DNA from: an uncultured Intestinimonas sp.
Lineage (GTDB): Bacteria > Bacillota > Clostridia > Oscillospirales > Oscillospiraceae
DNA: 36,034 nucleotides
Assembly: GCF_944387245.1 (NCBI RefSeq)
Contig: NZ_CALXEE010000016.1
Span: 1-36,034, forward strand
Direction of reading: 5' to 3'
Shown here piece after piece: positions 8,471 through 28,727 of this stretch. The position numbers and the translations under genes are program-made. Each line of letters begins with the position of its first letter. Position 1 is the stretch's first letter. Below the pieces are notes generated by a model. The model saw only the letters and a program-made list of their open reading frames with translations. It was not told the DNA's origin and searched no databases.

Positions 8471-8509
8471 TGGCAGGCACCACGCAAACAAAAATTCTGG
8501 TTTGAGATG

Positions 8510-8826: not shown

Positions 8827-8880
8827 GTGTTTGCGATAAATAAATTTAAGCAATAAAAACTTTTTGTGAGGCGGAGAACC

Positions 8881-10212
8881 ATGATGAAGCAACAGACAGG
8901 GACCGGCAGTGTATTCAACTTTGAAGGTGTCCCTTCCGCTGGCCAAATGATTCCCCTTGGGTTCCAGCACGTGGTGGCCGCTGTGGTCGGTATCATTACG
9001 CCGGCCATCCTGATCTCAGATACCTGCGGGCTTTCCGCGGCCGAACGGACGCTGATGATCCAGGTGTCGCTGATCCTGACGGCGGTGGCGACGCTTCTCC
9101 AGCTTTTCCCCATCTTTGGACGCATCGGCTCTCGACTGCCGGTGATCATGGGCATCAGCTTCGCCTACATCCCCACCCTCCAGGCCATCGGCGGACAGTT
9201 CGATTTGGCCACCATTTTGGGCGCTGAGATCGTGGGCGGCTGTGTAGCCATTCTCTTTGGCGTCTTTGTCAAATGGATTCGCCCTCTCTTCCCGCCCCTG
9301 GTCACCGGCACGGTGATCTTCACCATCGGCCTTTCCCTCTATCCCACCGCCGTGCGGTACATGGCCGGCGGCAACGCCACCAGCGAGTGGTTTGGCAACC
9401 CCCGCAGCTGGGCGGTGGCCCTCATCACCCTGGCGGTGGTGGTTTTCCTCAACAACTTCACCAAGGGTATCCTGAAGCTGGCCTCCATACTCATTGGCAT
9501 GGTGGTGGGGTATATCATCGCCTACTTCCTTGGCATCGTGGACCTCTCTGGGGTGAGCGGCGCGGCCTGGTTCGCCCTGCCCCAGTTCATGCCCTTTGAG
9601 ATCAAGTTTGTCCCCTCTGCCTGCGTCTCTCTGGCCATCGTATACGTGGTTAACGCGGTGCAGACCATCGGCGACCTGAGTTCCACAACCATGGGTGGCA
9701 TGGACCGCCTGCCCACAAACAAGGAGCTCGCCGGCGGCATCATTGGTCAGGGCGTCATGAGCATCGTGGGCGCCTTCTTCGGCGGCCTGCCCACCGCCTC
9801 TTACAGCCAGAACGTGGGCATCGTCACCGTCAACCGGGTCATCAACCGGGCCGTCTTTGCGCTGGCTGCTGGTATCCTTCTGGTGGCCGGTCTGGTACCC
9901 AAGTTTGCCTCCATCCTCACCACCATTCCCCAGTGTGTCATCGGCGGCGCCACCATCTCGGTCTTTGCCACCATTACCATGACTGGCATCCGCATGATCA
10001 CCGAGGGTGGCTTCACCCCCCGGAAGAGTTCCGTGGTGGGCCTCTCCGTGGCCCTGGGCGTGGGCATCACCCAGGTGCCCGGTTGCCTGGCCGGCAGTCA
10101 CTTCCCCAGCTGGGTGTCCACCGTGTTCGGCTCCTCTTCTGTGGTGGTGGCCACCATCATGGCCATCCTCCTCAATCTGATCCTCCCCAAGGAACCCGAA
10201 AACAGCAAGTAA
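8881..10212 (+). CDS. NCS2-family xanthine/urate:cation symporter
   Basis: It is predicted to import purines (xanthine, urate or uracil-type bases) with protons or sodium. The 443-residue protein has about 14 hydrophobic segments and the NCS2 fold marks: the TM1 motif GFQH (Gln29-His30), the TM8 stretch NAVQTIGDLSS and the TM10 stretch PTASYSQNVG. Gln310-Asn311 in TM10 is the purine-type version of the Glu seen in uracil carriers. Oddly, the TM8 position that is a nearly invariant Glu in the family is Gln261 here. The ATG at 8881 follows GAGGCGGAG; an in-frame GTG at 8866 overlaps that ribosome site. Its position beside ssnA-ygfK-xdh marks it as the substrate importer for that pathway. Exact substrate is uncertain. 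Confidence 0.9.
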   Translation: MMKQQTGTGSVFNFEGVPSAGQMIPLGFQHVVAAVVGIITPAILISDTCGLSAAERTLMIQVSLILTAVATLLQLFPIFGRIGSRLPVIMGISFAYIPTLQAIGGQFDLATILGAEIVGGCVAILFGVFVKWIRPLFPPLVTGTVIFTIGLSLYPTAVRYMAGGNATSEWFGNPRSWAVALITLAVVVFLNNFTKGILKLASILIGMVVGYIIAYFLGIVDLSGVSGAAWFALPQFMPFEIKFVPSACVSLAIVYVVNAVQTIGDLSSTTMGGMDRLPTNKELAGGIIGQGVMSIVGAFFGGLPTASYSQNVGIVTVNRVINRAVFALAAGILLVAGLVPKFASILTTIPQCVIGGATISVFATITMTGIRMITEGGFTPRKSSVVGLSVALGVGITQVPGCLAGSHFPSWVSTVFGSSSVVVATIMAILLNLILPKEPENSK

Positions 10213-10260: not shown

Positions 10261-10908
10261 TTACTTTTCCGAGGCCGACTTAGCCTCGTCGATGTAGCTA
10301 TACAAGGTGTATTTGGAGATACCGAAGTACTTGCATACCTTGTAGCCCGACTTGGTGATGAGGAAGGCGCCGGTGTCGTTGAGGAACTGGATGGCCTTCA
10401 CCTTGTCCTCCTTGTTCATGAGGGCCACCGGCTTGCCCACCAGCTTGACGCTCTGCTCGATGAGCTCGTCCAGCAGGTCGGCCACGTTCCGGGAGATGTG
10501 CTCCGGCTCCTCCTGGGGGAGGTCGGTGGCGGTGAAGCTCTTCAGCACATCCTCCATGGCCAGCATGAGGGTGATGTCGTAGTTGATGGCGAAGATGCCG
10601 ATGGCCTTGCCGTCGTCGTCCCGGAGGTAGATGGTGCTGGATTTGAGGATCTTGCCGTCCTCCGACTTGGTGAGGTAGCTCAGCCGGTCCTCCGGCACCG
10701 CGCCGCCGTCCCGCAGGGCCTCCAGCACCACGTGGGAAGGGCCGTCCCCCACCCTCCGGCCGGAGACATGGCCGTTTTCGATGGCCACGATGGAGGTCTC
10801 CGGGTCGTTGGAGGCCAGGTCGTGGACCACCACCTCACAGTTGGGGCCGAACTGTCGGGCGATGCCCTTGGCCAGCTGGAGGCAGAATTCCAGATTGGAC
10901 GCTTGCAT
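10261..10908 (-). CDS. YheO/DauR-type PAS-HTH transcriptional regulator
   Basis: This is a cytoplasmic DNA-binding regulator of 215 residues. The N-terminal YheO-like PAS domain (about 5-120) shows FGPNCEVVVHDLASND, ENGHVSGRRVGD and IGIFAINYDIT. The C-terminal helix-turn-helix (about 165-210) contains FLITKSGYKVCKYFGISKYTLYSYIDEA, here noted by its central KVCKYFGISKYTLY. The ATG at 10908 is chosen because AAAGGTGG lies 6-7 nt upstream; a GTG further upstream lacks one. It is transcribed away from ssnA from a strong promoter (10947-10975), which makes it the likely local regulator of the purine island. Ligand and sign of control are not visible. Confidence 0.85.
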   Translation of the reverse strand: MQASNLEFCLQLAKGIARQFGPNCEVVVHDLASNDPETSIVAIENGHVSGRRVGDGPSHVVLEALRDGGAVPEDRLSYLTKSEDGKILKSSTIYLRDDDGKAIGIFAINYDITLMLAMEDVLKSFTATDLPQEEPEHISRNVADLLDELIEQSVKLVGKPVALMNKEDKVKAIQFLNDTGAFLITKSGYKVCKYFGISKYTLYSYIDEAKSASEK

Positions 10909-10946
10909 AGCGAACCACCTTTCCCTCAAAAATCAGTTCTATCCTT

Positions 10947-11042: not shown

Positions 11043-11086
11043 GAATACGGCAGAAGGGCAAGCCTTGTGCACAACTGACAATTCAA

Positions 11087-11118
11087 GCTGTAACGAAGTG
11101 CTGCGCGCACGGGCTGGT
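11087..11118 (+). promoter_or_regulatory. Conserved leader RNA core, copy A (riboswitch-like)
   Basis: This 32-nt segment begins GCTGTAACGAAGTGCT and ends GCGCACGGGCTGGT. It is nearly identical to a 33-nt segment in the nfnA leader (28545-28577, - strand), with one gap and one mismatch. It can fold as AGC/GCT closing an internal loop (TGTAACGAA against GG) and an inner GTGC/GCAC helix. Its last bases run directly into the terminator hairpin at 11116-11143. I recall a published bioinformatic candidate called the ssnA RNA motif, and this may be it, but I cannot confirm the match from sequence alone. Confidence 0.7.
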
Positions 11119-11152
11119 GTTCATTCTGAAAAGAATGGGCACCTTTTGTTTT
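11116..11152 (+). terminator. Leader terminator before ssnA
   Basis: Arms GGTGTTCATTCT (11116-11127) and AGAATGGGCACC (11132-11143) pair over 12 bp with two G-U wobbles around the loop GAAA. TTTTGTTTT follows. It lies inside the ssnA leader, 57 nt before the ATG, and overlaps the end of the conserved core by 3 nt, so it is probably a regulated attenuator. Confidence 0.75.
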
Positions 11153-11208: not shown

Positions 11209-12549
11209 ATGCTTCTGATCGGAAACGGAAGGCTCATCACCAGAGATCCCGCCCTGCCCTACCTGGCGGACGGCGCCGTGGCGGTGGAGGGAGAGATCGT
11301 CAAGGAAGTGGGGACCCTGGCCGACCTGAAGGCCAAGTACCCCAACGCCCAGTTTGTGGACGCCAAGGGCGGCGTCATCATGCCCGGCCTCATCAACGCC
11401 CACACCCACATCTACTCCGGCCTGGCCCGTGGCCTGGCCATTGAGGGCAACAACCCCACCAACTTCCTGGAGGTGCTAGAGGGGACCTGGTGGAACATCG
11501 ACCGCCACCTGACCCTGGACGGCACCCGTGCCAGCGCCTACGCCACGGTTCTGGACTGCATCCGGGACGGCGTCACCACCATCTTCGACCACCACGCCTC
11601 CTTCTGCGAGATCCCCGGCTCCCTCTTCGCCATCAAGGACGTGTGCCAGGAGCTGGGTATGCGTGCCTGCCTGTGCTATGAGGTGAGCGAGCGGGACGGG
11701 GAGGAAAAGACCCTCCAGTCCATTCAGGAGAACGCCGACTTCGCCAAGTGGGCCAAGGACGCCAACGACGACATGATTAAGGCCATGTTCGGCGGCCACG
11801 CCCTCTTCACCATCTCCGACAAGACCTTTGAGAAGATGGTGGAGGCCAACAACGGCATGACCGGCTTCCACATCCATGTGGCCGAGGGCATGAACGACGT
11901 CTACGACTCCCTGCGCAACTACGGCTGTCGGCCGGTGAACCGCCTCCTCTACAACGGCATCCTGGGCGACAGGACCCTGCTGGGCCACTGCATCCACATC
12001 TCTCCCGCCGAGATGGACATCATCCGTGAGACGGGCACCATGGTGGTCAACAACCCCGAGTCCAACATGGGCAACGCCGTGGGCTGCTCTCCCGTGCTCC
12101 AGATGTTCCAGAAGGGCATCACCGTGGGCATGGGCACCGACGCCTACACCCACGACATGCTGGAGAGCCTGAAGGTCTTCCTCATCATCCAGCGCCACAA
12201 CGCCTGCCTGCCCAATGTGGGCTGGTGCGAGGCCATGGATATGCTCTTCAAGAACAACGCCGCCATTGCCGCCAAGTACTTTGAAAAGCCTCTGGGCGTC
12301 CTGAAGCCCGGCGCCGCCGCCGACGTCATTGTCATGGACTACAAGCCCTTCACCCCCTTCTCTGACGAGAACATCGACGGCCATATGCTCTTCGGCATGA
12401 TGGGCAAGAACTGCCGCACCACCATCATCAACGGCAAGGTCCTCTACCAGGACCGCCAGTTCGTGGGCATTGATGAAGAAAAGATCAATGCCTGGACCAT
12501 GGAGCAGAGCAAGAAGCTGTGGGGCGAGCTGAACCACCGGACCTACTGA
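11209..12549 (+). CDS. ssnA: SsnA, amidohydrolase-family aminohydrolase
   Basis: This is a metal-dependent hydrolase of the guanine/cytosine deaminase-chlorohydrolase group, always found with selenium-linked molybdenum hydroxylase genes. The 446-residue protein carries the metal site: HTH at His65-His67 in LINAHTHIYSGLARG, the GFHIHVAEG strand near residue 220, LLGHCIHI near 263 and GTDAYTHDM near 310. It starts at the ATG behind AGGAGG. It leads the operon ssnA-ygfK-YitT-like-xdh, with 34 nt to ygfK, and is preceded by the conserved leader RNA. Published genetics link this gene set to anaerobic urate breakdown; whether SsnA deaminates a purine or opens a ring is not settled by sequence. Confidence 0.92.
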   Translation: MLLIGNGRLITRDPALPYLADGAVAVEGEIVKEVGTLADLKAKYPNAQFVDAKGGVIMPGLINAHTHIYSGLARGLAIEGNNPTNFLEVLEGTWWNIDRHLTLDGTRASAYATVLDCIRDGVTTIFDHHASFCEIPGSLFAIKDVCQELGMRACLCYEVSERDGEEKTLQSIQENADFAKWAKDANDDMIKAMFGGHALFTISDKTFEKMVEANNGMTGFHIHVAEGMNDVYDSLRNYGCRPVNRLLYNGILGDRTLLGHCIHISPAEMDIIRETGTMVVNNPESNMGNAVGCSPVLQMFQKGITVGMGTDAYTHDMLESLKVFLIIQRHNACLPNVGWCEAMDMLFKNNAAIAAKYFEKPLGVLKPGAAADVIVMDYKPFTPFSDENIDGHMLFGMMGKNCRTTIINGKVLYQDRQFVGIDEEKINAWTMEQSKKLWGELNHRTY

Positions 12550-12583: not shown

Positions 12584-15577
12584 ATGAGTGATATCATGCG
12601 CCCCATCCCCTTTGCCCAGCTGATGGACTGGGTCCTCACCGAGTACCAGGAGTACGGCAGCATTTTCGGCGTGAGCAAGCTGGTCCGCCACGAGAACGGC
12701 CAGGCCCTGCCCATCTTCGCCGAGAAGATCGAATCCCCCTATGGCCCCGCCGCCGGCCCCAACACCCAGCTGGCCCAGAACATCATCGCCTCCTACGCCG
12801 CCGGCGCCCGGTTCTTCGAGCTCAAGACGGTGCAGATCATGGACGGCGAGGAGCTCTCCAAGTGTGTGGCCAAGCCCTGCATCACTGCCGGGGACGAGTG
12901 CTATAACTGCGAGTGGTCCACCGAGCTCACCGTGCCACAGGCCTACGACGAGTACGTGAAGGGATGGTTCGCCTGCAAGCTCCTCTCCAAGGAGTTGGGC
13001 CTGGGCGACCCTGACGGCTTCGTGTTCAACATGTCGGTGGGTTACGACCTGGCCGGCATCAAGAGCGAGAAGATCGACAAATACATCGAGGGCATGAAGG
13101 ACGCCTCCGGTTCCGCAGTGTGGAGCGAGTGCATGGACTGGGCCCTGGCCAACCTGGGCAAATTTAAGAAGGTGGACGAGGCCTACGTGAAGGCGGTCAG
13201 CCCCAAGGTCTCCGCCTCCATCACCGAGTCCACCCTCCACGGCTGTCCTCCCGACGAGATCGAGCGTATCGCCACCTATCTCATCACCGAGAAGGGGCTC
13301 AACACCTACGTTAAGTGCAACCCCACCCTCCTGGGCTACGAGTTTGCCCGGCAGCGGCTGGATTCCCTGGGCTTTGACTACATTGTCTTCGACGACCACC
13401 ACTTCCTGGAGGACCTCCAGTGGGCCGATGCCGTGCCCATGTTCCGCCGCCTGATGGCCCTGTGCGCCCAGCGGGGTCTGGAGTTCGGCGTGAAGCTCAC
13501 CAACACCTTCCCTGTGGACGTGGCCGCCGGGGAGCTGCCCAGCCAGGAGATGTATATGTCCGGCCGGTCCCTCTTCCCCCTGACCATCTCCCTGGCCCGG
13601 AAGGTGGCCGAGGAGTTTGACGGCAAGCTGCGCATCTCCTACTCCGGCGGCGCCGACCTCCACAACATCAAGGATCTCTTCCACGCCGGTATCTGGCCCA
13701 TTACCATGGCCACCACCATTCTCAAGCCCGGCGGCTACCAGCGCATGAGCCAGATGGGCGAGCTGCTCATGGACTGCGGCAGCGCCCCCTTCGCCGGGGT
13801 GGATGTCTCCGCCGTGGCCGCCCTGGCCGACGGTGTGGAGAAGACCGAGCTCTACCGCAAGCCCATCAAGCCCCTGCCCCAGCGGAAGATGAACAAGAAG
13901 GTACCCCTCATCGACTGCTTCACCGCCCCCTGCCGCAACGGTTGCCCCATCGAGCAGGACATCCCCGCCTATCTGATGGCCACCAGCCAGGGCAAGTATC
14001 AGGAGGCCCTGGAGATCATCACCCGCCGCAACGCCCTGCCCTTCATCACCGGCACCATCTGCCCCCACCACTGCGCCGACAAGTGCATGCGCAACTATTA
14101 TGAGGAGTCCGTTCGTATCCGGAACGTGAAGCTCCAGGCCGCTCAGGGCGGCTACGACGCCCTGCTGCCCACCCTGAAGGCCGAGGCCCCTGTGGCGGGC
14201 AAGAAGGTGGCCGTGGTGGGCGGTGGCCCCGCCGGTCTCTCCGCCGCCTTCTTCCTCTCCCGTGCCGGGGTGGACGTCACCGTCTTTGAGCGCAAGGACG
14301 GCCTGGGCGGCATTGTCCGCCATGTCATCCCCGAGTTCCGCATCGGCAAGGAGGCCATCGACAAGGACGTGGCCCTCTGCAAGGCATACGGCGCTAAGTT
14401 CGAGCTGGGCGTGGACGTGAAGTCCGCCGAGGAGCTCAAGGCTAAGGGCTTCACCCACATCATCTTCGCCACCGGCGCCTGGAAGCCCGGTGCCGCCGGC
14501 CTGGACTACGGCGAGGAGATCAACGTCATCTCCTTCCTGGAGCAGGCCAAGAAGGCGCCCGAGAGCCTGAAGCTGGGCACCGACGTGGTGGTCATCGGCG
14601 GCGGCAACACCGCCATGGACGCCGCCCGGGCCGCCAAGCGCATCCCCGGTGTAGAGCACGTCCGGCTGGTCTACCGCCGCACCAAGCGGTACATGCCCGC
14701 CGATGAGGAGGAGCTGGCCCTAGCCATCGCTGACGGCGTGGAGTTTATGGAGCTGCTGGCCCCCGTGGGTGTGAAGGACGGTGTCCTCACCTGTTCTGTC
14801 ATGGAGCTGGGTGCCCCCGATGCCTCCGGCCGCCGGTCCCCCGTGGCCACCGGTAAGACCACCGAGATCCCCGCCACCGCCGTCATCACCGCCGTGGGCG
14901 AGCACGTGGAGGAGGCTCCCTTCGTCCAGAGCGGTGTGGCCCTGGACAAGAAGGGCAGCCCCGTAGTGGACGAGGCCATGGCCACCGGTGTGGAGGGTGT
15001 CTACGCCGTGGGTGACGCCCGGAGAGGCCCTGCCACCGTGGTGGAGGCCATCGCCGACGCCGCCAAGGCCGCCCAGGTCATCGTGGACCTGGAGCTAGAC
15101 AAGTATACCAAGCGGAATATCAATGCAGACTATAACAAACCGTTGAGCAAAAAGGGCGACCTTTGCGCCGACTGTGACACCTGCGCCGACACCCGCTGCC
15201 TGGGCTGCCCTACGGTGTGCGAGGTGTGCGCCGACGTCTGCCCCAACCGGGCCAACGTGACCATCGCGGTGCCCGGAAAGCGACAGCGGCAGATCGTCCA
15301 CGTGGACGGCATGTGCAACGAGTGCGGCAACTGCGGCACCTTCTGCCCCTACGACAGCCGGCCCTACAAAGACAAACTTACCCTCTTCTGGAGCAAAGAG
15401 GATTTTGACAACAGCGAGAACGAGGGCTTCCTGCCCCTGGAGGGCAGCAGGAGCCTGGTCCGTCTGGACGGCCAGACGGCAGAGTACGACACCGCCGATG
15501 CGGGCTGCGGCCTGCCCGAGGACATCCGGGTCCTCATCCAGACGGTGCGGAGCGACTACAGCTATCTGGTGAAATAA
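12584..15577 (+). CDS. ygfK: YgfK, multi-domain flavin/iron-sulphur oxidoreductase
   Basis: It is named putative selenate reductase subunit, but is tied to purine catabolism by gene context. There are three parts over 997 residues. Residues about 1-430 are a dihydroorotate dehydrogenase-like TIM barrel. Residues about 440-835 are a glutamate-synthase small-subunit module with Cys-rich FTAPCRNGCPIEQDIP, an FAD motif VVGGGPAGLSAA near 540 and an NADPH motif VIGGGNTAMDAARAAKR near 667. Residues about 855-925 hold dense Cys motifs, including CNECGNCGTFCPYDSRP, for 4Fe-4S clusters. The middle module is a paralogue of NfnB at 26.3-27.6 kb. It may pass electrons to or from Xdh, which lacks a FAD subunit here. 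ATG follows GGAGG by 9 nt. Confidence 0.92.
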   Translation: MSDIMRPIPFAQLMDWVLTEYQEYGSIFGVSKLVRHENGQALPIFAEKIESPYGPAAGPNTQLAQNIIASYAAGARFFELKTVQIMDGEELSKCVAKPCITAGDECYNCEWSTELTVPQAYDEYVKGWFACKLLSKELGLGDPDGFVFNMSVGYDLAGIKSEKIDKYIEGMKDASGSAVWSECMDWALANLGKFKKVDEAYVKAVSPKVSASITESTLHGCPPDEIERIATYLITEKGLNTYVKCNPTLLGYEFARQRLDSLGFDYIVFDDHHFLEDLQWADAVPMFRRLMALCAQRGLEFGVKLTNTFPVDVAAGELPSQEMYMSGRSLFPLTISLARKVAEEFDGKLRISYSGGADLHNIKDLFHAGIWPITMATTILKPGGYQRMSQMGELLMDCGSAPFAGVDVSAVAALADGVEKTELYRKPIKPLPQRKMNKKVPLIDCFTAPCRNGCPIEQDIPAYLMATSQGKYQEALEIITRRNALPFITGTICPHHCADKCMRNYYEESVRIRNVKLQAAQGGYDALLPTLKAEAPVAGKKVAVVGGGPAGLSAAFFLSRAGVDVTVFERKDGLGGIVRHVIPEFRIGKEAIDKDVALCKAYGAKFELGVDVKSAEELKAKGFTHIIFATGAWKPGAAGLDYGEEINVISFLEQAKKAPESLKLGTDVVVIGGGNTAMDAARAAKRIPGVEHVRLVYRRTKRYMPADEEELALAIADGVEFMELLAPVGVKDGVLTCSVMELGAPDASGRRSPVATGKTTEIPATAVITAVGEHVEEAPFVQSGVALDKKGSPVVDEAMATGVEGVYAVGDARRGPATVVEAIADAAKAAQVIVDLELDKYTKRNINADYNKPLSKKGDLCADCDTCADTRCLGCPTVCEVCADVCPNRANVTIAVPGKRQRQIVHVDGMCNECGNCGTFCPYDSRPYKDKLTLFWSKEDFDNSENEGFLPLEGSRSLVRLDGQTAEYDTADAGCGLPEDIRVLIQTVRSDYSYLVK

Positions 15578-15594: not shown

Positions 15595-16251
15595 ATGCAG
15601 GAGAAGGCGACCCTCAAACGGTATGGGATCTTTCTGATGGGAGTGCTGATATGCGCCATGGGGATCGCCTTCCTCTCCCGATCGGCCCTGGGCACGTCGC
15701 CCCTCTCCAGCGTTTCCTTCGTGCTCTATCTGTCCACCGGCGTCTCCGCCGGGGTCTACACCTTCGCCTGCAACATGTTCTTCCTGGCGGTGGATGTGAT
15801 CCTGACCCGGCGGTTCGGCTGGATGCAGTGGCTCCAGATCCCGGCCACCTTCGTGTTCAGCCTGTGCATCGACCTGTGGCTGGCCGTTATCCCCACCCAG
15901 CTCAACGGCCCCATTTCCCTCAAGGTGCTCTACCTGGTCCTGGGCTGCCCCATCATGGCCCTGGGCATCACCCTGGAGGTGCTGGCCAACGTGACCATCC
16001 TGCCCGGTGAGGGCATCGTCAAGACCCTGGCCGCCAAGGGCGGCTGGGAGTTCGGCAATGTAAAGGTGGCCTTTGACTGCACCCTCACCGCCATCGCGTC
16101 GGTTATCGCCTTCTTTGCCTTCGGCCGGCTCAACGGCGTGGGCATCGGCACCCTGGTGTCCGCCCTGGCGGTGGGCCAGCTGGTGAAGCTCTACTCCCGC
16201 TGCATTCAGCGCGCCGCCCTCCGGCGGGCAGGCGGCGGGGCCGTCCAATGA
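15595..16251 (+). CDS. YitT/YczE-like integral membrane protein
   Basis: It is a 218-residue protein with five to six hydrophobic segments and almost no soluble domain. The N-terminus (RYGIFLMGVLICAMGIAF, then SALGTSPLSSV) and the LGCPIMALGITLEVLANV and LPGEGIVK stretches resemble the YczE/YitT group of uncharacterised membrane proteins. It lies 17 nt after ygfK and 27 nt before xdh, with an AGAGGA ribosome site, so it is co-transcribed with both. No transport signature is known for this group. The location between two catalytic genes of one pathway suggests a role in moving a substrate, intermediate or metal, which is inference only. Confidence 0.82.
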   Translation: MQEKATLKRYGIFLMGVLICAMGIAFLSRSALGTSPLSSVSFVLYLSTGVSAGVYTFACNMFFLAVDVILTRRFGWMQWLQIPATFVFSLCIDLWLAVIPTQLNGPISLKVLYLVLGCPIMALGITLEVLANVTILPGEGIVKTLAAKGGWEFGNVKVAFDCTLTAIASVIAFFAFGRLNGVGIGTLVSALAVGQLVKLYSRCIQRAALRRAGGGAVQ

Positions 16252-16278: not shown

Positions 16279-18864
16279 ATGGCTGAGATCTACAGCTTTA
16301 CGGTCAACGGCGTCCTGCGGGAGACGGGGGAGGAGAAGCCCCTCCTGCGCTACCTCCGGGATGACCTGGGCATCACCTCGGTGAAGGACGGGTGCAGCGA
16401 GGGCGCCTGCGGCACCTGCACCATCATCGTGGACGGCAAGGCGGTGCGCTCCTGCATCCTCACCACCAAGAAGGCGGTGGGCAAGACCATCCTCACCGTG
16501 GAGGGCCTCACTGAGGCCGAGCAGGAGGCCTTCGTCTACGCCTTCGGCAAGGTGGGCGCCGTCCAGTGCGGCTTCTGCATCCCCGGTATGGTTCTCTCGG
16601 GCAAAGCCCTGCTGGACCAGGTCCCCGATCCCACCGAGGACCAGATCAAGCAGGCCATCCGGGGCAACGTGTGCCGTTGCACCGGCTACAAGAAGATCAT
16701 CGAGGGCATCACCCTGGCCGGAGCCATCCTCCGGGGGGAGGCCTCCATCGACCCCGAACTGGAGAAGGGCGACACCTACGGCGTGGGCGACCGGGCCTTC
16801 CGCACCGACGTCCGGGACAAGGTTCTGGGTAGGGGAGAGTACGTGGACGATGTCCACATGGAGGGCATGGTCCACGCCTCCGCCGTCCGCTCCCAGTATC
16901 CCCGTGCCCGGGTGCTGGACATCGACGCCAGCGCCGCCCTGGCCCTGCCCGGTGTGCTGGCCGTCCTCACCGCCGACGACGTACCCAACAACAAGGTGGG
17001 CCACATCCAGCAGGACTGGGACGTAATGATCGCCAAGGGGGATGTCACCCGCTGCGTGGGCGACGCCATCTGCCTGGTGGTGGCTGAGACTGAGGACATC
17101 CTTAAAGAGGCCAAAAAGCTGGTCAGGATCGACTATGAACCCCTGGAGCCGGTGCGGAACATCCAGGAGGCCATGGCCCCCGACGCCCCCAAGCTCCATC
17201 CCAACGGCAACCTGTGCCAGTCCCGGCATGTGACCCGGGGCGATGCCAAGGCCGCCCTGGCAAAGTCCAAGTACGTGGTCACCCAGAGCTACACCACCCC
17301 CTTCACCGAGCACGCCTTCCTGGAGCCCGAGTGCGCTGTGGCCTTCCCCTACAAGGACGGCGTGAAGGTGTACACCTCCGACCAGGGCGTCTACGACACC
17401 CGGAAGGAGATCTCCATCATGCTTGGCTGGGACCCCGACCGCATCGTGGTGGAGAACAAGCTGGTGGGCGGCGGCTTCGGCGGAAAGGAGGACGTGTCCG
17501 CCCAGCACATCGCCGTGCTGGCGGCCCTGAAGGTGAACCGGCCGGTGAAGGTGAAGTTCTCCCGGCAGGAGTCCATCAACTTCCACCCCAAGCGCCACTA
17601 TATGGAGGGCACCTTCACCCTGGGCTGCGACGAGAACGGCATCTTCACGGGTCTGGACTGCGAGATCTATTTCGACACCGGTGCCTACGCTTCCCTGTGC
17701 GGGCCGGTGCTGGAGCGGGCCTGCACCCACTCGGTGGGTCCCTACTGCTACCAGAACACCGACATCCGGGGCTTTGGCTACTACACCAACAATCCCCCCG
17801 CCGGCGCCTTCCGGGGCTTCGGCGTGTGCCAGAGCGAGTTCGCCCTGGAGTCCAACATCAACCTGCTGGCCGAGAAGGTGGGCATCTCCCCCTGGGAGAT
17901 CCGCTACCGCAACGCCATTGAGCCGGGGAAGGTGCTGCCCAACGGCCAGATCGCCGACTGCTCCACCGCCCTGAAGGAGACCCTGCTGGCGGTGAAGGAG
18001 GCCTATGAGGCCCACCCCGGCCGGGCGGGCATTGCCTGCGCCATGAAGAACACCGGAGTGGGCGTGGGCCTTCCCGACAAGGGCCGGTGCAAGCTGGCAG
18101 TGAAGGACGGGGTGGTGGGGCTCTACTCCGCCGCCTCCGACATCGGCCAGGGCTGCGCCACCGTATTCCTCCAGGTGCTGGGAGAGACCCTGGGCCTGGG
18201 CCGGGAGCAGATGCGTAACATGGGGGCCAACTCCGAGGTGGCCCCCGACTCCGGCACCACCTCCGGCTCCCGCCAGACCCTCCTCACCGGCGAGGCGGTG
18301 CGCATGGCCGCTGTGGACCTCAAGAAGGATCTGGACGCCGCCGGGGGAGACCTGAGCGCTCTGGAGGGGAAGGAGTACTTTGCCGAGTTCTTCGACCCCA
18401 CCGACAAGCTGGGCTCCGACAAGCCCAACCCAAAGAGCCACGTGGCCTACGGCTTTGCCACCCACGTGGTCATCCTGGACGACGCGGGCAAGGTCAAAGA
18501 GGTCTGGGCCGCCCATGACTCGGGCAAGGTGGTCAACCCCACCTCCATCCAGGGCCAGATCGAGGGCGGCGTCCTCATGGGCCTGGGCTACGCCCTCACC
18601 GAGGACTTCCCCCTGAAGGACTGCGTCCCCCAAGCCAAGTTCGGCACTCTGGGCCTCATGCGTGCCCACCAGATCCCCGACATCCACGCCATCTATGTGG
18701 AGAAGGAGGAGCTGCTCCCCTTCGCCTATGGCGCCAAGGGCATCGGCGAGATTGCCACCATCCCCACCGCCCCCGCCGTTCAAGGCGCCTATTACGCCAT
18801 GGACCACGTGCTGCGCACCAGGCTGCCCATGGAGAATACCTTCTATAAGCCGTCGAAAAAGTGA
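16279..18864 (+). CDS. xdh: Xanthine dehydrogenase, 2Fe-2S plus molybdopterin fusion
   Basis: It hydroxylates purines (hypoxanthine, xanthine) or runs in reverse on urate. It has 861 residues. The N-terminal iron-sulphur domain has the plant-type cluster Cys39, 44, 47, 59 and the second cluster Cys97, 100, 132, 134 (CGFC and CRCTGY). From about 165 on is the molybdopterin catalytic domain, with GGGFGGKED at 397-405, AFRGFGVCQ near 512 and the catalytic Glu824 in GAKGIGE. No FAD subunit is encoded nearby, so electrons must go to another protein, possibly YgfK. The family fusion matches the Xdh named selenium-dependent in clostridia; labile selenium cannot be read from sequence and no in-frame TGA is present. 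ATG follows AGGAGG. Confidence 0.93.
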   Translation: MAEIYSFTVNGVLRETGEEKPLLRYLRDDLGITSVKDGCSEGACGTCTIIVDGKAVRSCILTTKKAVGKTILTVEGLTEAEQEAFVYAFGKVGAVQCGFCIPGMVLSGKALLDQVPDPTEDQIKQAIRGNVCRCTGYKKIIEGITLAGAILRGEASIDPELEKGDTYGVGDRAFRTDVRDKVLGRGEYVDDVHMEGMVHASAVRSQYPRARVLDIDASAALALPGVLAVLTADDVPNNKVGHIQQDWDVMIAKGDVTRCVGDAICLVVAETEDILKEAKKLVRIDYEPLEPVRNIQEAMAPDAPKLHPNGNLCQSRHVTRGDAKAALAKSKYVVTQSYTTPFTEHAFLEPECAVAFPYKDGVKVYTSDQGVYDTRKEISIMLGWDPDRIVVENKLVGGGFGGKEDVSAQHIAVLAALKVNRPVKVKFSRQESINFHPKRHYMEGTFTLGCDENGIFTGLDCEIYFDTGAYASLCGPVLERACTHSVGPYCYQNTDIRGFGYYTNNPPAGAFRGFGVCQSEFALESNINLLAEKVGISPWEIRYRNAIEPGKVLPNGQIADCSTALKETLLAVKEAYEAHPGRAGIACAMKNTGVGVGLPDKGRCKLAVKDGVVGLYSAASDIGQGCATVFLQVLGETLGLGREQMRNMGANSEVAPDSGTTSGSRQTLLTGEAVRMAAVDLKKDLDAAGGDLSALEGKEYFAEFFDPTDKLGSDKPNPKSHVAYGFATHVVILDDAGKVKEVWAAHDSGKVVNPTSIQGQIEGGVLMGLGYALTEDFPLKDCVPQAKFGTLGLMRAHQIPDIHAIYVEKEELLPFAYGAKGIGEIATIPTAPAVQGAYYAMDHVLRTRLPMENTFYKPSKK

Positions 18865-19030: not shown

Positions 19031-19091
19031 GTACTCAGAATCAGACAAAAAGTATGGAATGCTTTAAAACATTTTGGAGGCGAAAAACGGG

Positions 19092-20327
19092 ATGAAAGAC
19101 CCCATCAAGTGGACGGACAACCACATGCCCAAGAGCGAGGACAAGAATCTGTCCATCATGTCCCTGAGCAACGTGGCCAAGGCGCGGTTTTTCCACAGCA
19201 GCTTCCCCCAGTACTCCATTACCCCTCTGGCCCGGCTGGACGGCATGGCCAAGTACCTGGGGCTGGGCGGGGTCTACGTGAAGGATGAGTCCTACCGCTT
19301 TGGGCTCAACGCTTTTAAGGTGCTGGGCGGCTCCTTCGCTATGGCCAAGTACATCGCCGGTGAGATGGGCCGGGACGTCTCCGAGATGACTTATGATTAC
19401 CTGACCAGCGACTCCTTCCGCAAGGAGTTCGGCCAAGCCACCTTCTTCACCGCCACCGACGGCAACCACGGCCGGGGCATGGCGTGGGCGGCCCACAAGC
19501 TGGGCCAGAAGGCGGTGGTCCACATGCCCAAGGGCTCCAGCCAGTCCCGGTATGACAACATCGCCAAGGAGGGCGCCCAGGTCACCATCGAGGACGTGAA
19601 CTACGACGACTGCGTCCGCATGGCGGCGGCCGAGGCCGAGCAGACCGAGCACGGCGTCATCGTCCAGGACACCGCCTGGGAGGGCTATGAGGAGATCCCC
19701 TCCTGGATCATGCAGGGCTACGGCACCATGGCCAACGAGGCCGCTGACCAGCTCCGGCAGATCGGCGTGAACCGGCCCACCCACGTCTTTGTCCAGGCCG
19801 GCGTGGGCTCCCTGGCCGGCGCCGTGGTGGGCTACTTCACCAACCTCTATCCCAACGATCCCCCCAAGTTCGTGGTCATGGAGGCCCGCGCCGCCGACTG
19901 CCTCTACCGGGGCGCTGTGGCTGGGGACGGAAAGCCCCGCATCGTCACCGGCGACCTCCAGACCATCATGGCCGGTCTGGCCTGCGGCGAGCCCAACACC
20001 CTCTCCTGGGACATTCTGCGCAACCACGTGAGCGCCTTCGTCTCCTGCCCCGACTGGGTGAGCGCCAAGGGCATGCGGATGCTGGGCGTGCCCGTAAAGG
20101 GGGACCCGGTGGTCATCTCCGGCGAGTCCGGCGCCGTGGGCATGGGCTGTCTGGACGCCATCATGTGTGACGACACCTACAAGGATCTGCGGGAGATGCT
20201 GGAGCTGGACCGCTTCAGCCAGGTGCTGATGTTCTCCACCGAGGGCAACACCGACCCGCTGAAGTTCCGCCGGGTGATCTGGGACGGCGAGTATCCCACC
20301 ACCGACTCACCCCAGCACGCCTACTAA
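19092..20327 (+). CDS. dpaL: Diaminopropionate ammonia-lyase
   Basis: This PLP enzyme (YgeX) splits 2,3-diaminopropionate into pyruvate and two ammonia. In anaerobic urate degradation that is the step giving usable carbon. The 411-residue protein has the fold-type II marks: PLP lysine Lys76 in GLNAFKVLGG, TATDGNHGRGMAW for phosphate binding, and QAGVGSLAGAVVG near 235. The ATG at 19092 is chosen over a TTG at 19074 because GGAGG (19076-19080) precedes the former and overlaps the latter. It leads a unit with ygeY (55 nt on), ygeW and arcC. Confidence 0.95.
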   Translation: MKDPIKWTDNHMPKSEDKNLSIMSLSNVAKARFFHSSFPQYSITPLARLDGMAKYLGLGGVYVKDESYRFGLNAFKVLGGSFAMAKYIAGEMGRDVSEMTYDYLTSDSFRKEFGQATFFTATDGNHGRGMAWAAHKLGQKAVVHMPKGSSQSRYDNIAKEGAQVTIEDVNYDDCVRMAAAEAEQTEHGVIVQDTAWEGYEEIPSWIMQGYGTMANEAADQLRQIGVNRPTHVFVQAGVGSLAGAVVGYFTNLYPNDPPKFVVMEARAADCLYRGAVAGDGKPRIVTGDLQTIMAGLACGEPNTLSWDILRNHVSAFVSCPDWVSAKGMRMLGVPVKGDPVVISGESGAVGMGCLDAIMCDDTYKDLREMLELDRFSQVLMFSTEGNTDPLKFRRVIWDGEYPTTDSPQHAY

Positions 20328-20382
20328 GATACGAGCATGTTTTGACGGATGGATCAAATGACTGATAATGGAGGGCACTGAT

Positions 20383-21795
20383 ATGGATTTTGAGCAGATC
20401 AAGAAGGCCGCCGAAGGCTATCGCGCCGACATGACCCGTTTTCTCCGGGATATGATCTCCCACCCCAGCGAGAGCTGCGAGGAGAAGGAGGTCGTGGCCT
20501 GCATCAAGGCCGAGATGGAGAAGCTGGGCTACGACAAGGTGGAGGTCGACGGTCTGGGCAACGTCATCGGCTGGATGGGCGAGGGCGACAAGATCATCGC
20601 CATCGACTCCCACATCGACACCGTGGGCATCGGCAACATCGACAACTGGGAGGCCGACCCCTACAAGGGCTATGAGGACGACGTCATCATCTTCGGCCGG
20701 GGCGGCTCCGACCAGGAGGGCGGTATGGCCTCCGCCACTTACGGCGCCAAGATCATGAAGGATCTGGGCCTCATCCCCGCCGGCTACAAGATCATGGTCG
20801 TGGGCTCCGTCCAGGAGGAGGACTGCGACGGCATGTGCTGGCAGTACATCGTCAACAAGTTCTTCCCCGCCAACGGAATTAAGAAAGAGCAGGTGGAGTT
20901 CGTCATCTCCACCGAGCCCACCGACGGCGGCATCTACCGCGGCCACCGGGGCCGCATGGAGATCCGTGTGGACGTGAAGGGCGTCTCCTGCCACGGCTCC
21001 GCCCCCGAGCGCGGCGACAACGCCATCTACAAGATGGCCGACATCCTCCAGGACGTCCGTGCCCTCAACGAGAACGACGACGCCGACGCCACCGAGATCA
21101 AGGGCCTCGTGAAGATGCTCAATCCCAAGTACAACCCCGAGCACTACGAGGATGCCCGCTTCCTGGGCCGGGGCACCTGCACCACCAGTCAGATCTTCTA
21201 CACCTCTCCCAGCCGCTGCGCCGTGGCCGACTCCTGCGCCATCTCCATCGACCGCCGCATGACCGCCGGCGAGACCTGGGACTCCTGCCTCCAGGAGATC
21301 CGGGATCTGCCCAGCGTGAAGAAGTACGGCGACGACGTGAAGGTGTCCATGTACATGTACGACCGTCCCTCCTGGACCGGCGAGGTCTATGAGACCGAGG
21401 CCTACTTCCCCACCTGGATCAACAAGGAGTCCGCCGCCCACGTCCAGGCTCTGGTGGATGCCCACCACGCCCTCTTCGGCGACAAGCGTCTGGGCTACAC
21501 CGACGCCGACATCAAGCGGGACGCCATGCACCTGCGTGAGGGCCGTCCCCTCACCGACAAGTGGACTTTCTCCACCAACGGTGTGGCCATCCAGGGCCGG
21601 TACGGCATCCCCTGCGTGGGCTTCGGCCCCGGCGCCGAGAGCCAGGCCCACGCCCCCAACGAGATCACCTGGAAGGACGACCTGGTCCGCTGCGCCGCCC
21701 TGTACGCCGCCGTGCCCGGCCTCTACAAGGAGGAGAACAAGACCGACGACGTGACCCAGTTCCGGGCCGGTAAGACCAATAATGACATCAAGTAA
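20383..21795 (+). CDS. ygeY: YgeY, M20-family metallohydrolase
   Basis: This is a zinc-dependent amidohydrolase of the M20/ArgE/DapE fold, the form linked to selenium/molybdenum hydroxylase clusters. The 470-residue protein shows the metal ligands His77 and Asp79 (IDSHIDTVG), Asp110 ([13 protein letters not shown]) and the acidic pair Glu145-Glu146 (VQEED). The dimerisation-domain His lies in [14 protein letters not shown]. It is thought to hydrolyse a ring-opened purine intermediate, yielding diaminopropionate or a precursor, but the substrate is not proved by sequence. The ATG at 20383 follows GGAGGG by 7 nt. Its stop codon lies inside a 22-bp direct repeat shared with the intergenic region. 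Confidence 0.92.
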
Positions 21796-22021: not shown

Positions 22022-23221
22022 ATGGATAAGACCCTTCAGATGTATATCGACAAGCTCAACAAGCTCAACTTCAAGGACATGTACAACGGCGACTTCTTCC
22101 TGACCTGGGAGAAGACCGACGACGAGATCGAGGCCGTGTTCACCCTGGCCGACGCCCTGCGTTACATGCGTGAGAACAACATCTCCACCAAGATCTTCGA
22201 GTCCGGCCTGGGCATCTCCCTCTTCCGCGACAACTCCACCCGCACCCGGTTCTCCTTCGCCTCCGCCTGCAACCTGCTGGGCCTGGAGGTCCAGGACCTG
22301 GACGAGGGCAAGAGCCAGATCGCCCACGGCGAGACCGTCCGTGAGACTGCCAACATGATCTCCTTCATGGCCGACGTCATCGGTATCCGTGACGACATGT
22401 ACATCGGCAAGGGCAACAAGTACATGCACGAGGTGGTGGACGCCGTCACCGCCGGCAACAAGGACGGGGTCCTGGAGCAGAAGCCCACCCTGGTGAACCT
22501 GCAGTGCGACATTGACCACCCCACCCAGTGCATGGCCGACATGCTGCACATCATCCATGAGTTCGGCGGCGTGGAGAACCTGAAGGGCAAGAAGGTGGCC
22601 ATGACCTGGGCCTACTCCCCCTCCTACGGCAAGCCCCTCTCCGTGCCCCAGGGTGTTATCGGCCTGATGACCCGCTTCGGCATGGACGTGGTCCTGGCCC
22701 ATCCCGAGGGCTACGAGGTCATGCCCGAGGTGGAAGAGGTCGCCAAGAAGAACGCCGAGAAGTCCGGCGGCACCTTCACCAAGACCAACTCCATGGCTGA
22801 GGCCTTCAAGGACGCCGACATCGTGTATCCCAAGAGCTGGGCTCCCTTCGCCGCCATGGAGAAGCGTACCGACCTGTATGCTCAGGGTGACTCCGAGGGC
22901 ATCAAGGCCCTGGAGAAGGAGCTGCTGGCCCAGAACGCCGAGCACAAGGACTGGTGCTGCACCGAGGAGCTCATGAAGACCACCAAGGACGGCAAGGCCC
23001 TTTACATGCACTGCCTGCCCGCCGACATCAACGGCGTCTCCTGTGTGGACGGCGAGGTGGAGGCCAGCGTATTCGACCGCTACCGCGATCCCCTCTACAA
23101 GGAGGCTTCCTTCAAGCCCTACATCATCGCCGCCATGATTTTCCTGGCCAAGGTGAAGGACCCCCAGGCCACTCTGAAGGCCCTGGAGGACCGTGGCATC
23201 GCCCGCTGGTTCCAGAAGTAA
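22022..23221 (+). CDS. ygeW: YgeW, knotted carbamoyltransferase
   Basis: It belongs to the aspartate/ornithine transcarbamoylase family, in the knotted-fold branch found with ygeXY and ygfK. In this pathway it is expected to run phosphorolytically, giving carbamoyl phosphate for ArcC. The 399-residue protein has the carbamoyl phosphate site SLFRDNSTRTRFSF (STRTR at 72-76), IDHPTQCMAD near 165 and the second-domain motif HCLPADI near 330. The ATG follows AAGGAG. Its codons are almost all C/G-ending, with many CGT arginines, as expected for strong expression. A rho-independent terminator follows 80 nt after the stop, so arcC may be expressed less. Confidence 0.93.
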   Translation: MDKTLQMYIDKLNKLNFKDMYNGDFFLTWEKTDDEIEAVFTLADALRYMRENNISTKIFESGLGISLFRDNSTRTRFSFASACNLLGLEVQDLDEGKSQIAHGETVRETANMISFMADVIGIRDDMYIGKGNKYMHEVVDAVTAGNKDGVLEQKPTLVNLQCDIDHPTQCMADMLHIIHEFGGVENLKGKKVAMTWAYSPSYGKPLSVPQGVIGLMTRFGMDVVLAHPEGYEVMPEVEEVAKKNAEKSGGTFTKTNSMAEAFKDADIVYPKSWAPFAAMEKRTDLYAQGDSEGIKALEKELLAQNAEHKDWCCTEELMKTTKDGKALYMHCLPADINGVSCVDGEVEASVFDRYRDPLYKEASFKPYIIAAMIFLAKVKDPQATLKALEDRGIARWFQK

Positions 23222-23362: not shown

Positions 23363-23599
23363 AGAACAGCGAAGCTGTTCTGGGGCACCCGAGAGTGACT
23401 TCACATGCTCGGCGGAAGTGAATTCCGCCTGCGCCAAGGGTCTGCCAAGGGGCAGACCGCTTGAACGCGCCGGACGGCGCGGGAACAGCTTCGCTGTCCC
23501 GGGGACCCGAAAGTGACTTCATATGCCCGGCGGAAGTGAATTCCGCCTGCGCCAAGGGCCTGCCTGCGGCAGACCGCTTGAGCGCGCCAAAAGGCGCGG
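23363..23599. repeat. Two tandem copies of a 118-bp hairpin-rich repeat
   Basis: Copy 1 (about 23363-23480) and copy 2 (about 23482-23599) repeat with a period of 118 bp. Each holds four hairpins in order: AGAACAGC/GCTGTTCT (GGAACAGC/GCTGTCC in copy 2), GGCGGAA/TTCCGCC, GTCTGCC/GGCAGAC-type and CGCGCC/GGCGCG. Both copies also have AGTGACTTCA. Arms differ between copies while pairing is largely kept. Open frames through it, including an extension of arcC, look spurious. Confidence 0.8.
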
Positions 23600-23652
23600 C
23601 ACGCATTGCCGCCCTAAGTCCGAACAGGTTTGAAAAAACGAGGTGCAGTATC

Positions 23653-24594
23653 ATGGGTAAACGTATCGTGATCGCCCTGGGCGGCAATGCTCTGGGCGAC
23701 AATCTCCCCGAGCAGATGATCGCCGTGAAGCAGACGGCCAAGGCAATCGCCGACCTCATCCAGGAGGGCCACGAGGTGGTTATTGCCCATGGAAACGGTC
23801 CCCAGGTGGGCATGATCCAGAAGGCAATGGCGGAGCTCACCCGCTCCGAACCCGAGAAGTACATCCCCTGCCCGCTGTCGGTGTGCGTGGCCATGAGCCA
23901 GGGCTACATCGGCTATGACCTCCAGAATGCCCTTCGGGAGGAGCTGCTGGACCGGGGCATCGCCAAGGGCGTGGCCACCGTCCTCACCCAGGTGGAGGTG
24001 GACCCCGACGATCCCGCCTTCTCCCACCCCACCAAGCCCATCGGAGCCTTCATGACCAAGGCCGAGGCCGACAAGCTGGTGGCCGAGCGTGGCTACGATG
24101 TCATCGAGGACGCCGGCCGGGGATACCGCCGTGTGGTGGCCTCTCCCAAGCCCGTGTCCATCGTGGAGATCCAGTCCATCCGGGACATGGTGGAGGCCGG
24201 CCTGGTGGTGGTTGCTTGCGGCGGTGGCGGAATCCCCGTCTTCAAGACCGAGGGACACCACCTGAAGGGCGCCGCCGCTGTCATTGACAAGGATTTTGCC
24301 GCCTGCACCCTGGCCCAGCAGCTGGACGCCGACTGCCTCATTATCCTCACCGCCGTGGAGAAGGTGGCCATCCACTTCGGCAAGCCCGACGTGCAGTGGC
24401 TCTCCACCCTGACCCCGGCCCAGGCCGAGAAGTACATGGCCGACGGGGAGTTCGCCCCCGGCTCCATGCTGCCCAAGGTCCAGGCCGCCGTCCAGTTCGC
24501 CCAGTCCAAGGAGGGCCGCACCGCTCTTATCACCCTCCTGGAGAAGGCCAAGGACGGTATTGAGGGCAAGACGGGTACCCTCATTCAGCAATAA
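23653..24594 (+). CDS. arcC: Carbamate kinase
   Basis: It transfers phosphate from carbamoyl phosphate to ADP, giving ATP, CO2 and ammonia, and would harvest the energy released through YgeW. The 313 residues match the family. Marks are the N-terminal IVIALGGNAL, AHGNGPQVGMI near residue 47, VACGGGGIPV near 195 and GSMLPKVQAAVQF near the end. The ATG at 23653 follows GAGGTG; a longer frame from 23461 would add repeat-encoded residues and is rejected. It stands last in the purine island and ends before an inverted repeat. Confidence 0.95.
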   Translation: MGKRIVIALGGNALGDNLPEQMIAVKQTAKAIADLIQEGHEVVIAHGNGPQVGMIQKAMAELTRSEPEKYIPCPLSVCVAMSQGYIGYDLQNALREELLDRGIAKGVATVLTQVEVDPDDPAFSHPTKPIGAFMTKAEADKLVAERGYDVIEDAGRGYRRVVASPKPVSIVEIQSIRDMVEAGLVVVACGGGGIPVFKTEGHHLKGAAAVIDKDFAACTLAQQLDADCLIILTAVEKVAIHFGKPDVQWLSTLTPAQAEKYMADGEFAPGSMLPKVQAAVQFAQSKEGRTALITLLEKAKDGIEGKTGTLIQQ

Positions 24595-25481: not shown

Positions 25482-25493
25482 TACGAAAAGAAC

Positions 25494-25530: not shown

Positions 25531-25546
25531 CACATCCTGTGGACGA

Positions 25547-27645: not shown

Positions 27646-28488
27646 TCAGCGTACCTCCTGGTTCAAAAGATTGCAGGCTTCCTCGCGGGCGTGGACCTCG
27701 AAGTCTTTGTACATGGCGCCCCGGTGGATGGCCTCGTCAAAGTCCACCTCAAAGCCGTCGAACTCCGGCCCGTCCACGCAGGCGAACTTGGTCTTGCCGC
27801 CCACGGTGAGCCGGCAGCCGCCGCACATGCCGGTGCCGTCGATCATGATGGGGTTCATGGAGACCACGGTCTTGACGTTGTACTTCTTGGTGACGGCCAC
27901 CACGAACTTCATCATCACCAGAGGCCCGATGGCGATGACCTCATCGTACTGCTCGCCGGAGGTGATGAGCTCCTCCAGGGCGGCTGTGACCAGTCCCTTC
28001 TGCCCGCAGCTGCCGTCATCGCTCATGAGGACGAACTTGTCGCTGCAGGCGCGGAACTCATCCTCCAAGATGACCAGATCCTGGTTCCGGAAGCCCACCA
28101 CGCTATGGACCTCGGCGCCCTTCTCGTGGAGGGCCTTGGCCACAGGCAGGGCGATGGCGCAGCCCACGCCGCCTCCCACCACACAGACCTTCTTGAGGCC
28201 GTCCAGCTCACTGGCCCGGCCCAGGGGCCCCACAAAGTCGTGGAGGGACTCGCCCTCCTTCAGGGCGTCCAGCTCCATGGTTCCGGCGCCTACGATCTGG
28301 AAGATGACGGTGACGGTGCCCTTTTCCCGGTCGTAGTCGGCCACGGTGAGAGGGATGCGCTCGGAGTCGGCACAGGCCCGCAGAATGACAAACTGGCCGG
28401 GCAGGGCCTTTTTGGCAATGAGGGGGGCATCCACCACCATCTTGGTGACGGTGGGGTTTAGGGGTGTTTTTTCCACGATACGGTACAT
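27646..28488 (-). CDS. nfnA: NADH-dependent ferredoxin:NADP oxidoreductase small subunit
   Basis: This is the NfnA/SudB-type subunit of 280 residues. It has an N-terminal FAD-binding barrel (PGQFVILRA, RIPLTVADYD), a nucleotide-binding domain (VCVVGGGVGCAIALPVAKAL) and a C-terminal 2Fe-2S site with DGTGMCGGCRLTV followed by FACVDGPEFDG. The ATG at 28488 follows GGGAGGAG; a start at 28566 would run through the leader RNA and is rejected. It forms a two-gene operon with nfnB. Its leader carries the same RNA core as ssnA, which suggests shared control with purine catabolism. Confidence 0.9.
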   Translation of the reverse strand: MYRIVEKTPLNPTVTKMVVDAPLIAKKALPGQFVILRACADSERIPLTVADYDREKGTVTVIFQIVGAGTMELDALKEGESLHDFVGPLGRASELDGLKKVCVVGGGVGCAIALPVAKALHEKGAEVHSVVGFRNQDLVILEDEFRACSDKFVLMSDDGSCGQKGLVTAALEELITSGEQYDEVIAIGPLVMMKFVVAVTKKYNVKTVVSMNPIMIDGTGMCGGCRLTVGGKTKFACVDGPEFDGFEVDFDEAIHRGAMYKDFEVHAREEACNLLNQEVR

Positions 28489-28583: not shown

Positions 28584-28727
28584 CAAGTCAATTTCACGCT
28601 ATCTAGTTTAGCACATCTCATAGCAAAAGAACAGGTGAAAATTCAGGTCTGCAAAAAAATTATAAGAATGCACAAATGTGAACCCGGCAGACTGTGCGAT
28701 TTCCACAGGGAACAGAGAGGACACGAC

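Follow-up and report, generated by a model that had tools for sequence, protein, structure and literature searches.

The leaders of ssnA and nfnA in a 36,034-nucleotide stretch of DNA from an uncultured Intestinimonas sp. (the window) carry copies of one short RNA, which is probably a cis-acting, transcription-terminating switch of the ssnA RNA family, with a candidate aptamer, ON polarity and yanthine as the first and uric acid as the second candidate ligand. Computation yielded the family match, the association with particular genes, the paired helices and the terminators; it also showed core and terminator to be mutually exclusive in the nfnA and hyuA leaders and in 15 more. In the mechanism that we propose, the 33-nt core, which consists of an outer helix (P1), an 8-nt conserved bulge and an inner helix (P2), would act as a putative aptamer. 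A small molecule would hold the core folded, and the terminator behind it could then not form. Blocked termination would allow read-through into ssnA-ygfK, hyuA and nfnAB, the last of which can supply NADPH; i.e., the RNA would be a genetic ON switch. The likeliest ligand would be an early pathway intermediate, yanthine (2,8-dioxopurine), followed by uric acid. We infer that the core binds a ligand, which ligand it binds, that the polarity is generally ON and how the abutting ssnA terminator of the window is controlled.

The RNA copies and the genes behind them

The core before ssnA (11087-11118, + strand, 32 nt) and that before nfnA (28577-28545, - strand, 33 nt) were compared directly. The original prediction that these segments agree in 31 of 33 columns was confirmed; the differences are one gap and one C/T. 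The predicted GTGC/GCAC inner helix is present in both copies, together with an outer helix. The suggestion that the segment may be the published ssnA RNA candidate also held, as both copies match Rfam family RF03031. The ssnA copy scores 50.6 bits (E 3.5e-11), and the nfnA copy (E 1.6e-6) falls 0.5 bit below the gathering score of 37.3 bits; at that threshold, the ssnA copy is the sole copy reported in the window. Four of the five nfnA copies of the genus pass the cut-off, with scores of 39.5-44.5. Each leader has its terminator, as claimed, which abuts the outer helix at ssnA and overlaps the entire core at nfnA, where the terminator arms take up the P1 strand and the conserved GUAAC. The proposed spacing of 50-60 nt between terminator and start codon applies to ssnA (56 nt from the end of the U-tract) and not to nfnA (34 nt). 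In the fold predicted for the state before completion of the ssnA terminator, the upstream segment pairs with the core's 3' half and with the 5' arm of the terminator. The features are listed in Table 1.

Table 1. Positions of the RNA elements and neighbouring genes in the window
Feature	Position	Strand	Basis or remark
Xanthine/uracil-type permease, upstream of the cluster	8866..10212	+	PF00860
YheO-like PAS + HTH regulator gene, divergent from ssnA	10261..10929	-	PF08348, PF13309
Upstream segment AGAAGGGCAAGCCUUGUGC, possible alternative fold with putative role	11052..11070	+	predicted pairing
ssnA RNA (RF03031) in ssnA leader	11078..11125	+	Rfam covariance-model match
ssnA copy, outer helix P1	11085-11089/11112-11116	+	outermost pair A-G, non-standard
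ssnA copy, conserved bulge GUAACGAA	11090-11097	+	
ssnA copy, inner helix P2 (GUGC/GCAC)	11098-11101/11107-11110	+	
ssnA terminator GGUGUUCAUUCU-GAAA-AGAAUGGGCACC-UUUUGUUUU, abuts P1	11116..11152	+	intrinsic terminator
ssnA, amidohydrolase	11209..12549	+	NF005540, 653.9 bits
ygfK, flavin/Fe-S reductase	12584..15577	+	TIGR03315, 1383.4 bits
YczE-like membrane protein, ssnA strand	15595..16251	+	44.7 bits, under curated cut-off of 205
Selenium-dependent xanthine dehydrogenase (XDH) family protein, ssnA strand	16279..18864	+	TIGR03311, 1276.8 bits
ygeX, diaminopropionate ammonia-lyase	19074..20327	+	
ygeY, M20-family hydrolase of the pathway	20368..21795	+	
ygeW, carbamoyltransferase	22022..23221	+	
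arcC, carbamate kinase	23461..24594	+	
nfnB	26252..27643	-	TIGR01316
nfnA	27646..28488	-	NF004862
nfnA terminator GGCAAC.GGCUGUAAC...GGUUACGGC.GGUUGC-UUUUCUUUUU	28523..28584	-	fold z -3.65
Second RNA copy, nfnA leader	28538..28586	-	36.8 bits
nfnA copy, outer helix P1	28579-28575/28551-28547	-	
nfnA copy, inner helix P2 (GUGC/GCAC)	28566-28563/28556-28553	-	

The first copy precedes a run of genes on one strand, ssnA-ygfK-yczE-like-XDH-ygeX-ygeY, and the second precedes nfnA-nfnB, which is convergent with ygeW-arcC. NfnAB couples ferredoxin, NADH and NADPH, and it could be the NADPH source that feeds YgfK. According to excerpts of PMC12507026 and PMC12990295, the enzymes of the reductive uric-acid pathway are SsnA, YgfK, HyuA, YgeW, YgeY and YgeX together with an XDH homologue. 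Uric acid is dehydroxylated to yanthine, which YgfK and SsnA convert to ureidomethyl-hydantoin with NAD(P)H; HyuA then opens the ring of this product, and the remaining enzymes yield pyruvate (excerpts of PMC12507026 and PMC12990295). The action of SsnA and YgfK on yanthine is known from in vitro work (PMC12507026, in part). These studies, as far as the excerpts go, described the pathway at the enzyme level as late as 2025 and were done in bacteria other than the organism of the window (PMC12507026, PMC12990295). The purine breakdown that was earlier linked to NfnAB is this reductive uric-acid pathway (PMC12507026, in part), and NfnAB is its possible supply.

Several further features of the window lie beside these genes. 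The YczE-like gene is located between ygfK and the XDH gene, and several relatives have the same arrangement. Two overlapping open reading frames (24735-26137, +) without NCBIfam or Pfam match lie between arcC and nfnB; the approximately 1.6 kb between these two genes is absent in the relatives S068 and S113, where arcC follows nfnB by approximately 0.1-0.2 kb. A 20-pair inverted repeat followed by a U-tract (28734-28781, -) forms a strong terminator between lysA and nfnA, and a weak Rfam match of this repeat to a microRNA is surely false. A cobalamin riboswitch (RF00174, 95.7 bits) is found at 30763-30946 (-), and a BtuC/BtuD-like ABC transporter with a periplasmic binding protein is encoded at 4750-8575 (-). 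A 1099-aa open reading frame at 31094-34393 (-) contains a phosphodiester glycosidase domain and S-layer homology domains.

The source genome (a 2.31-Mb draft in 136 contigs, 82% complete) holds three copies of the RNA, each before a pathway or supply gene; the third lies on another contig, 36 nt before the hyuA reading frame, and scores 45.8 bits. We compiled 115 non-redundant sites from 80 genome hits, the 2 window copies and 33 sites of a pattern scan of genome contigs. Five pattern hits that arose by chance (L053, L061, L065, L070 and L091) were dropped, as were L048, which sits at the edge of its locus, and redundant copies; two phylum hits below the cut-off (G398 and G589) were kept out of the census; no pathway protein was found in the 3 kb of either locus. 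The first downstream gene encodes SsnA at 104 sites, NfnA at 4 and HyuA at 3, and is unassigned at 4, of which S072 and S088 run off the record and S075 and S077 are chance hits under the cut-off. We also searched 11 genomes of the genus, of which 8 carry the RNA; this search contributed one further site each before ssnA, hyuA and nfnA, which gives 118 sites: 105 before ssnA, 5 before nfnA and 4 before hyuA (114 assignable), 2 cut and 2 by chance. The expectation that hits would be limited to purine and Nfn genes agreed with this census, in which the assignable sites all precede pathway or supply genes; the regulon is larger than had been proposed, as it includes hyuA. YgfK follows ssnA at 89 of the 104 ssnA sites, and at the other 15 the sequence ends 0-1225 nt behind ssnA.

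Among 300 genomes of the family to which the window belongs, 75 have both the RNA and SsnA, 3 the RNA only, 16 SsnA only and 206 neither (Fisher p 1.6e-50, for genomes that are related to each other). The three genomes with the RNA only comprise two chance hits and G185, whose ssnA is cut by a contig end. In samples of the phylum, SsnA was found in 89/396 genomes and an RNA hit in 4/398, with two above the cut-off, i.e., the source genome and G666. As the RNA is this rare in spite of the frequency of SsnA, it is mainly a device of the window's family and not of all ssnA genes. A diverged RNA before other ssnA genes was considered and rejected: the model R1, applied to 37 SsnA loci (8 from the 16 family genomes that lack the RNA, 28 from other families and L214), recovered L214 alone, which is the known G666 site, and its next two hits had E values of 0.24 and 1.6. 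The sole above-cut-off copy outside the home family in the 398-genome sample (L172, in G666, from another family of the phylum) precedes ssnA-ygfK-hyuA-XDH, and horizontal transfer of this whole unit is possible. In Oscillibacter, locus L086 has two divergent copies (3550-3574, -, and 6164-6188, +), of which one precedes ssnA and the other hyuA; permease and regulator genes lie in between.

Core structure and terminators

We aligned 66 distinct cores from 110 sites, excluding the mis-anchored S086 and S101; of the 33 columns, 17 are invariant. The chance hits S075 and S077 and the weak, unanchored S076 were left out of the pair counts and of the terminator counts below. The five pairs of P1 and the four pairs of P2 are formed in 96.5% of 594 cells, and shifting the partner by 1-3 columns destroyed this pairing. 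The outermost P1 pair is weak, being unpaired in 20 of the 66 cores. Three of the nine pairs change on both sides (A-U to G-C, C-G to U-A and U-G to A-U); the other six carry little information, four being constant and two showing a change on a single side in one sequence. There were 9 double-change cells vs 3.0 in shuffles (1/500 shuffles as high), and the count of three double-changed pairs was matched by 139/500 shuffles, in a control that leaves the relatedness of the sequences in place. The two-helix core is therefore conserved by structure, and the covariation expected of its stems is present and modest.

Folding energy by itself fails to predict the core. The isolated 48-nt ssnA element folded worse than 199 of 200 shuffles, with P1 missing from its lowest-energy fold, and the isolated nfnA element was unremarkable (z -0.80). 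When the terminator was included, the z values of the ssnA, nfnA and hyuA leaders were -2.23, -3.65 and -4.27, respectively.

A terminator was defined as a hairpin of at least 5 pairs ending at a U-rich tract. By this rule, 111/112 anchored leaders have one vs 111/448 leaders shuffled behind the core; with an energy of at most -15 kcal/mol, the counts were 104/112 and 14/448. When at least 3 P1/P2 bases had to be consumed in addition, 27/112 real and 9/448 shuffled leaders remained, and hairpins sharing at least 3 core bases with no energy cut occurred in 27/112 and 47/448. The 112 leaders were then sorted into four architectures, partly by hand, the direct and abutting classes being assigned by hand. 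An automatic label for exclusive pairing was given to 28/111 leaders, of which 22 were kept on inspection and S015, S027, S055, S059, S102 and S110 were set aside.

In the direct architecture (22 leaders), the terminator stem uses up bases of P1, P2 or the bulge. This set includes 4 nfnA, 3 hyuA and 15 other leaders by computation; one more nfnA and one more hyuA copy were recognized by eye. In two hyuA copies, the terminator takes the 3' half of the core (ACGGGCUUCC.../...GGGAGCCCGU), and in S067 the 13-nt 3' arm of the terminator is complementary to GCGCGCACGGGCC in that half. In the nfnA copies and the hyuA copy S109, the terminator invades the 5' half. Because the terminator at these leaders consumes core bases, folded core and terminator exclude each other, which points to an ON switch. 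The clearest indication that the folded core works against termination is that the terminator invades one half of the core in some leaders and the other half in others, and excludes the folded core in both cases.

Class A is the largest architecture (68 leaders). In 66 of these, a GRUAG on the 5' side pairs with a CUAYC behind the core, two mis-anchored leaders being uncounted; this pairing excludes P1 because it shares bases with P1. In addition, a CACUC/GAGUG helix or a variant of it (CACUG/CAGUG in 2 leaders) is possible in 64/68, compared with 12% of shuffles, and this helix overlaps the base of the terminator. Four leaders have a 10-11-bp helix that uses the whole CUAUC. These leaders fit a scheme in which formation of P1 frees an antiterminator. 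A broader test for such an antiterminator, which paired CUAUCNNNN with the 36 nt that follow, did no better than shuffles in class A, with 1/68 leaders below 0.05.

In the abutting architecture (6 leaders, including ssnA of the window, or 7 with the genus-search site L268), the terminator begins at the last base of P1. In 7 of the 16 other leaders, the bases immediately after P1 form a helix of 8-10 bp with the terminator arm, which was matched by at most 6/300 shuffles; no terminator was found by the rule in S065.

Candidate ligands, polarity and other explanations

Our tentative reading is that the ssnA RNA is a yanthine riboswitch activating the two enzymes that consume yanthine and, in the window's genus, hyuA and nfnAB as well. 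The constant target of the RNA is ssnA-ygfK. At least 7 kb of downstream sequence is available for 32 of the 67 class-A ssnA sites, and 26 of these 32 had no further pathway gene on that strand in a tblastn scan whose queries were the source genome's own proteins only; the other 6 have hyuA downstream, one of them with XDH also. A TIGR03311 XDH-family protein is present in 30/30 RNA-bearing genomes tested. As the targets SsnA and YgfK consume yanthine, while its maker is mostly outside the regulon, yanthine would be the simplest ligand, with uric acid close behind it.

We regard it as somewhat doubtful that the same RNA senses uric acid (or xanthine), which would amount to substrate induction of the whole pathway. 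In the window, the XDH-type gene lies behind ygfK in the same orientation; therefore, uric acid is as arguable as yanthine in this genome. The XDH-family gene lies behind ssnA, on the same strand and within 10 kb, in 7/30 RNA-bearing genomes, the source genome included (G000, G206, G287, G022, G014, G068 and G666, from the coordinates), and at 12/104 ssnA sites within the up to 8.5 kb examined. However, in the other 23/30 genomes it is elsewhere or on the other strand, although draft contigs hide some of the linkage. Moreover, neither RF03031 nor a purine element reached the gathering score in 20 XDH loci, and no RF03031 match precedes the window's permease gene. The idea that another known RNA stands before XDH genes was also considered and rejected, as the 20 loci yielded just FMN and TPP elements. 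The permease gene is present at 14/115 sites within the sequence examined. Uric acid draws further support from published work: RNA-seq in distant gut bacteria, as relayed in excerpts of Percudani's commentary, showed uric-acid induction of ygeX, ygeY, ygeW, ygfK and ssnA (PMC12990295), and an RNA sensor for xanthine or uric acid exists, namely NMT1 (PMC7373994, in part).

Control by a protein would place an RNA-binding antiterminator of the LicT/BglG (RAT) or ANTAR type on the core, which we consider improbable. The size of the core, its asymmetric-bulge hairpin and its overlap with a terminator resemble RAT sites, and a YheO-like PAS + HTH gene stands beside ssnA, divergently oriented, at 26/104 ssnA sites, the window included. 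However, the LicT/BglG RNA-binding domain (PF03123) occurs in just 2/18 near-complete RNA-bearing genomes, and ANTAR (PF03861), present in 13/18, is missing in 5/18 and is thus not a general requirement; on these counts, known protein antiterminators were ruled out as the general mechanism. Among class-A sites, the YheO-like gene was found at S078 only, at least 1.4 kb of upstream sequence having been examined for 108/115 sites. The domains of its product are of the DNA-binding type. Given the divergent position of the gene, a protein may govern part of the response through the promoter, and the YheO-like regulator is probably a second, promoter-level control beside the RNA.

A switch of OFF polarity, in which folding of the core by the ligand would release the terminator and so signal product or sufficiency, seems improbable to us. 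It draws on the ssnA leader of the window and three close relatives. The ssnA terminator of the window shares no paired base with P1 or P2, and the predicted sequestration of its arm is 7.8 kcal/mol in the ligand-free fold vs 5.5 kcal/mol with the core forced. The relatives S100 (7.7 to 5.0), S053 (3.4 to 2.8) and S104 (5.9 to 5.5) change in the same direction, and S066 goes the opposite way (1.8 to 3.9 kcal/mol). The ssnA leader of the window is accordingly ambiguous in polarity, and its modelled energies alone hint at the opposite of ON. However, core and terminator cannot coexist at nfnA and hyuA of the same genome, and a pathway switched ON at two sites and OFF at a third is unlikely. Of the 81 leaders scored, 48 lean ON, because the 5' arm of the terminator became more sequestered by over 0.5 kcal/mol when the core was forced, and 14 lean OFF, because it became less so (class A, 39 up and 9 down of 63; others, 9 up and 5 down of 18), in a noisy test that was given little weight.

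The view that the segment is a mere repeat or a chance likeness with no part in regulation has nothing in its favour beyond the shortness of the core and can be dismissed: instead of being scattered, the three copies in 2.31 Mb all precede pathway or supply genes, the association with genes extends over 300 genomes, the helices covary and the terminators far exceed shuffled controls.

Significance and relation to known systems

With these results, the regulon of an orphan RNA family is defined, the logic of its switching can be read at several sites, and its candidate ligands are narrowed to two. The pathway that it controls is relevant to uric acid in the human gut. If the RNA senses yanthine or uric acid, it would tell when gut bacteria run the pathway, and it would be a ready-made biosensor part. 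We also propose that, in the window's genus, uric-acid reduction draws on electron bifurcation by NfnAB.

The RNA belongs to an orphan family that is already known; the ssnA RNA candidate was reportedly among the set of 224 described by Weinberg et al. in 2017, and some of the gene contexts may already be in the original report. In a search of mainly open-access literature, we found no paper on the ligand of the ssnA RNA or RF03031 and none on yanthine together with a riboswitch. New here are the three-site regulon (ssnA, hyuA and nfnA), the exclusion between core and terminator, the finding that the RNA is almost confined to one family, and the nomination of a ligand. The elements share sequence, two-helix structure and the position before ssnA with the Rfam ssnA RNA, whose gathering score the ssnA and hyuA copies of the source genome exceed (50.6 and 45.8 bits); they differ in that the nfnA copy falls just short of it, and in the hyuA and nfnAB targets and the exclusive terminators described here.

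LicT/BglG RAT sites are likewise short bulged hairpins that overlap an intrinsic terminator; however, their cognate protein domain was not found in 16/18 genomes with the ssnA RNA. Of the nine Rfam matches that the window yielded with E values of up to 10, none was to the NMT1 model, which the library presumably includes. The xanthine riboswitch NMT1, as presented in excerpts of Yu and Breaker 2020 (PMC7373994), belongs to the same metabolic area and is also a hairpin with a conserved internal bulge. NMT1 RNAs act as OFF switches, likely at the level of translation initiation (PMC7373994, in part), whereas the expression platform here is a terminator, and the polarity is ON where it can be read.
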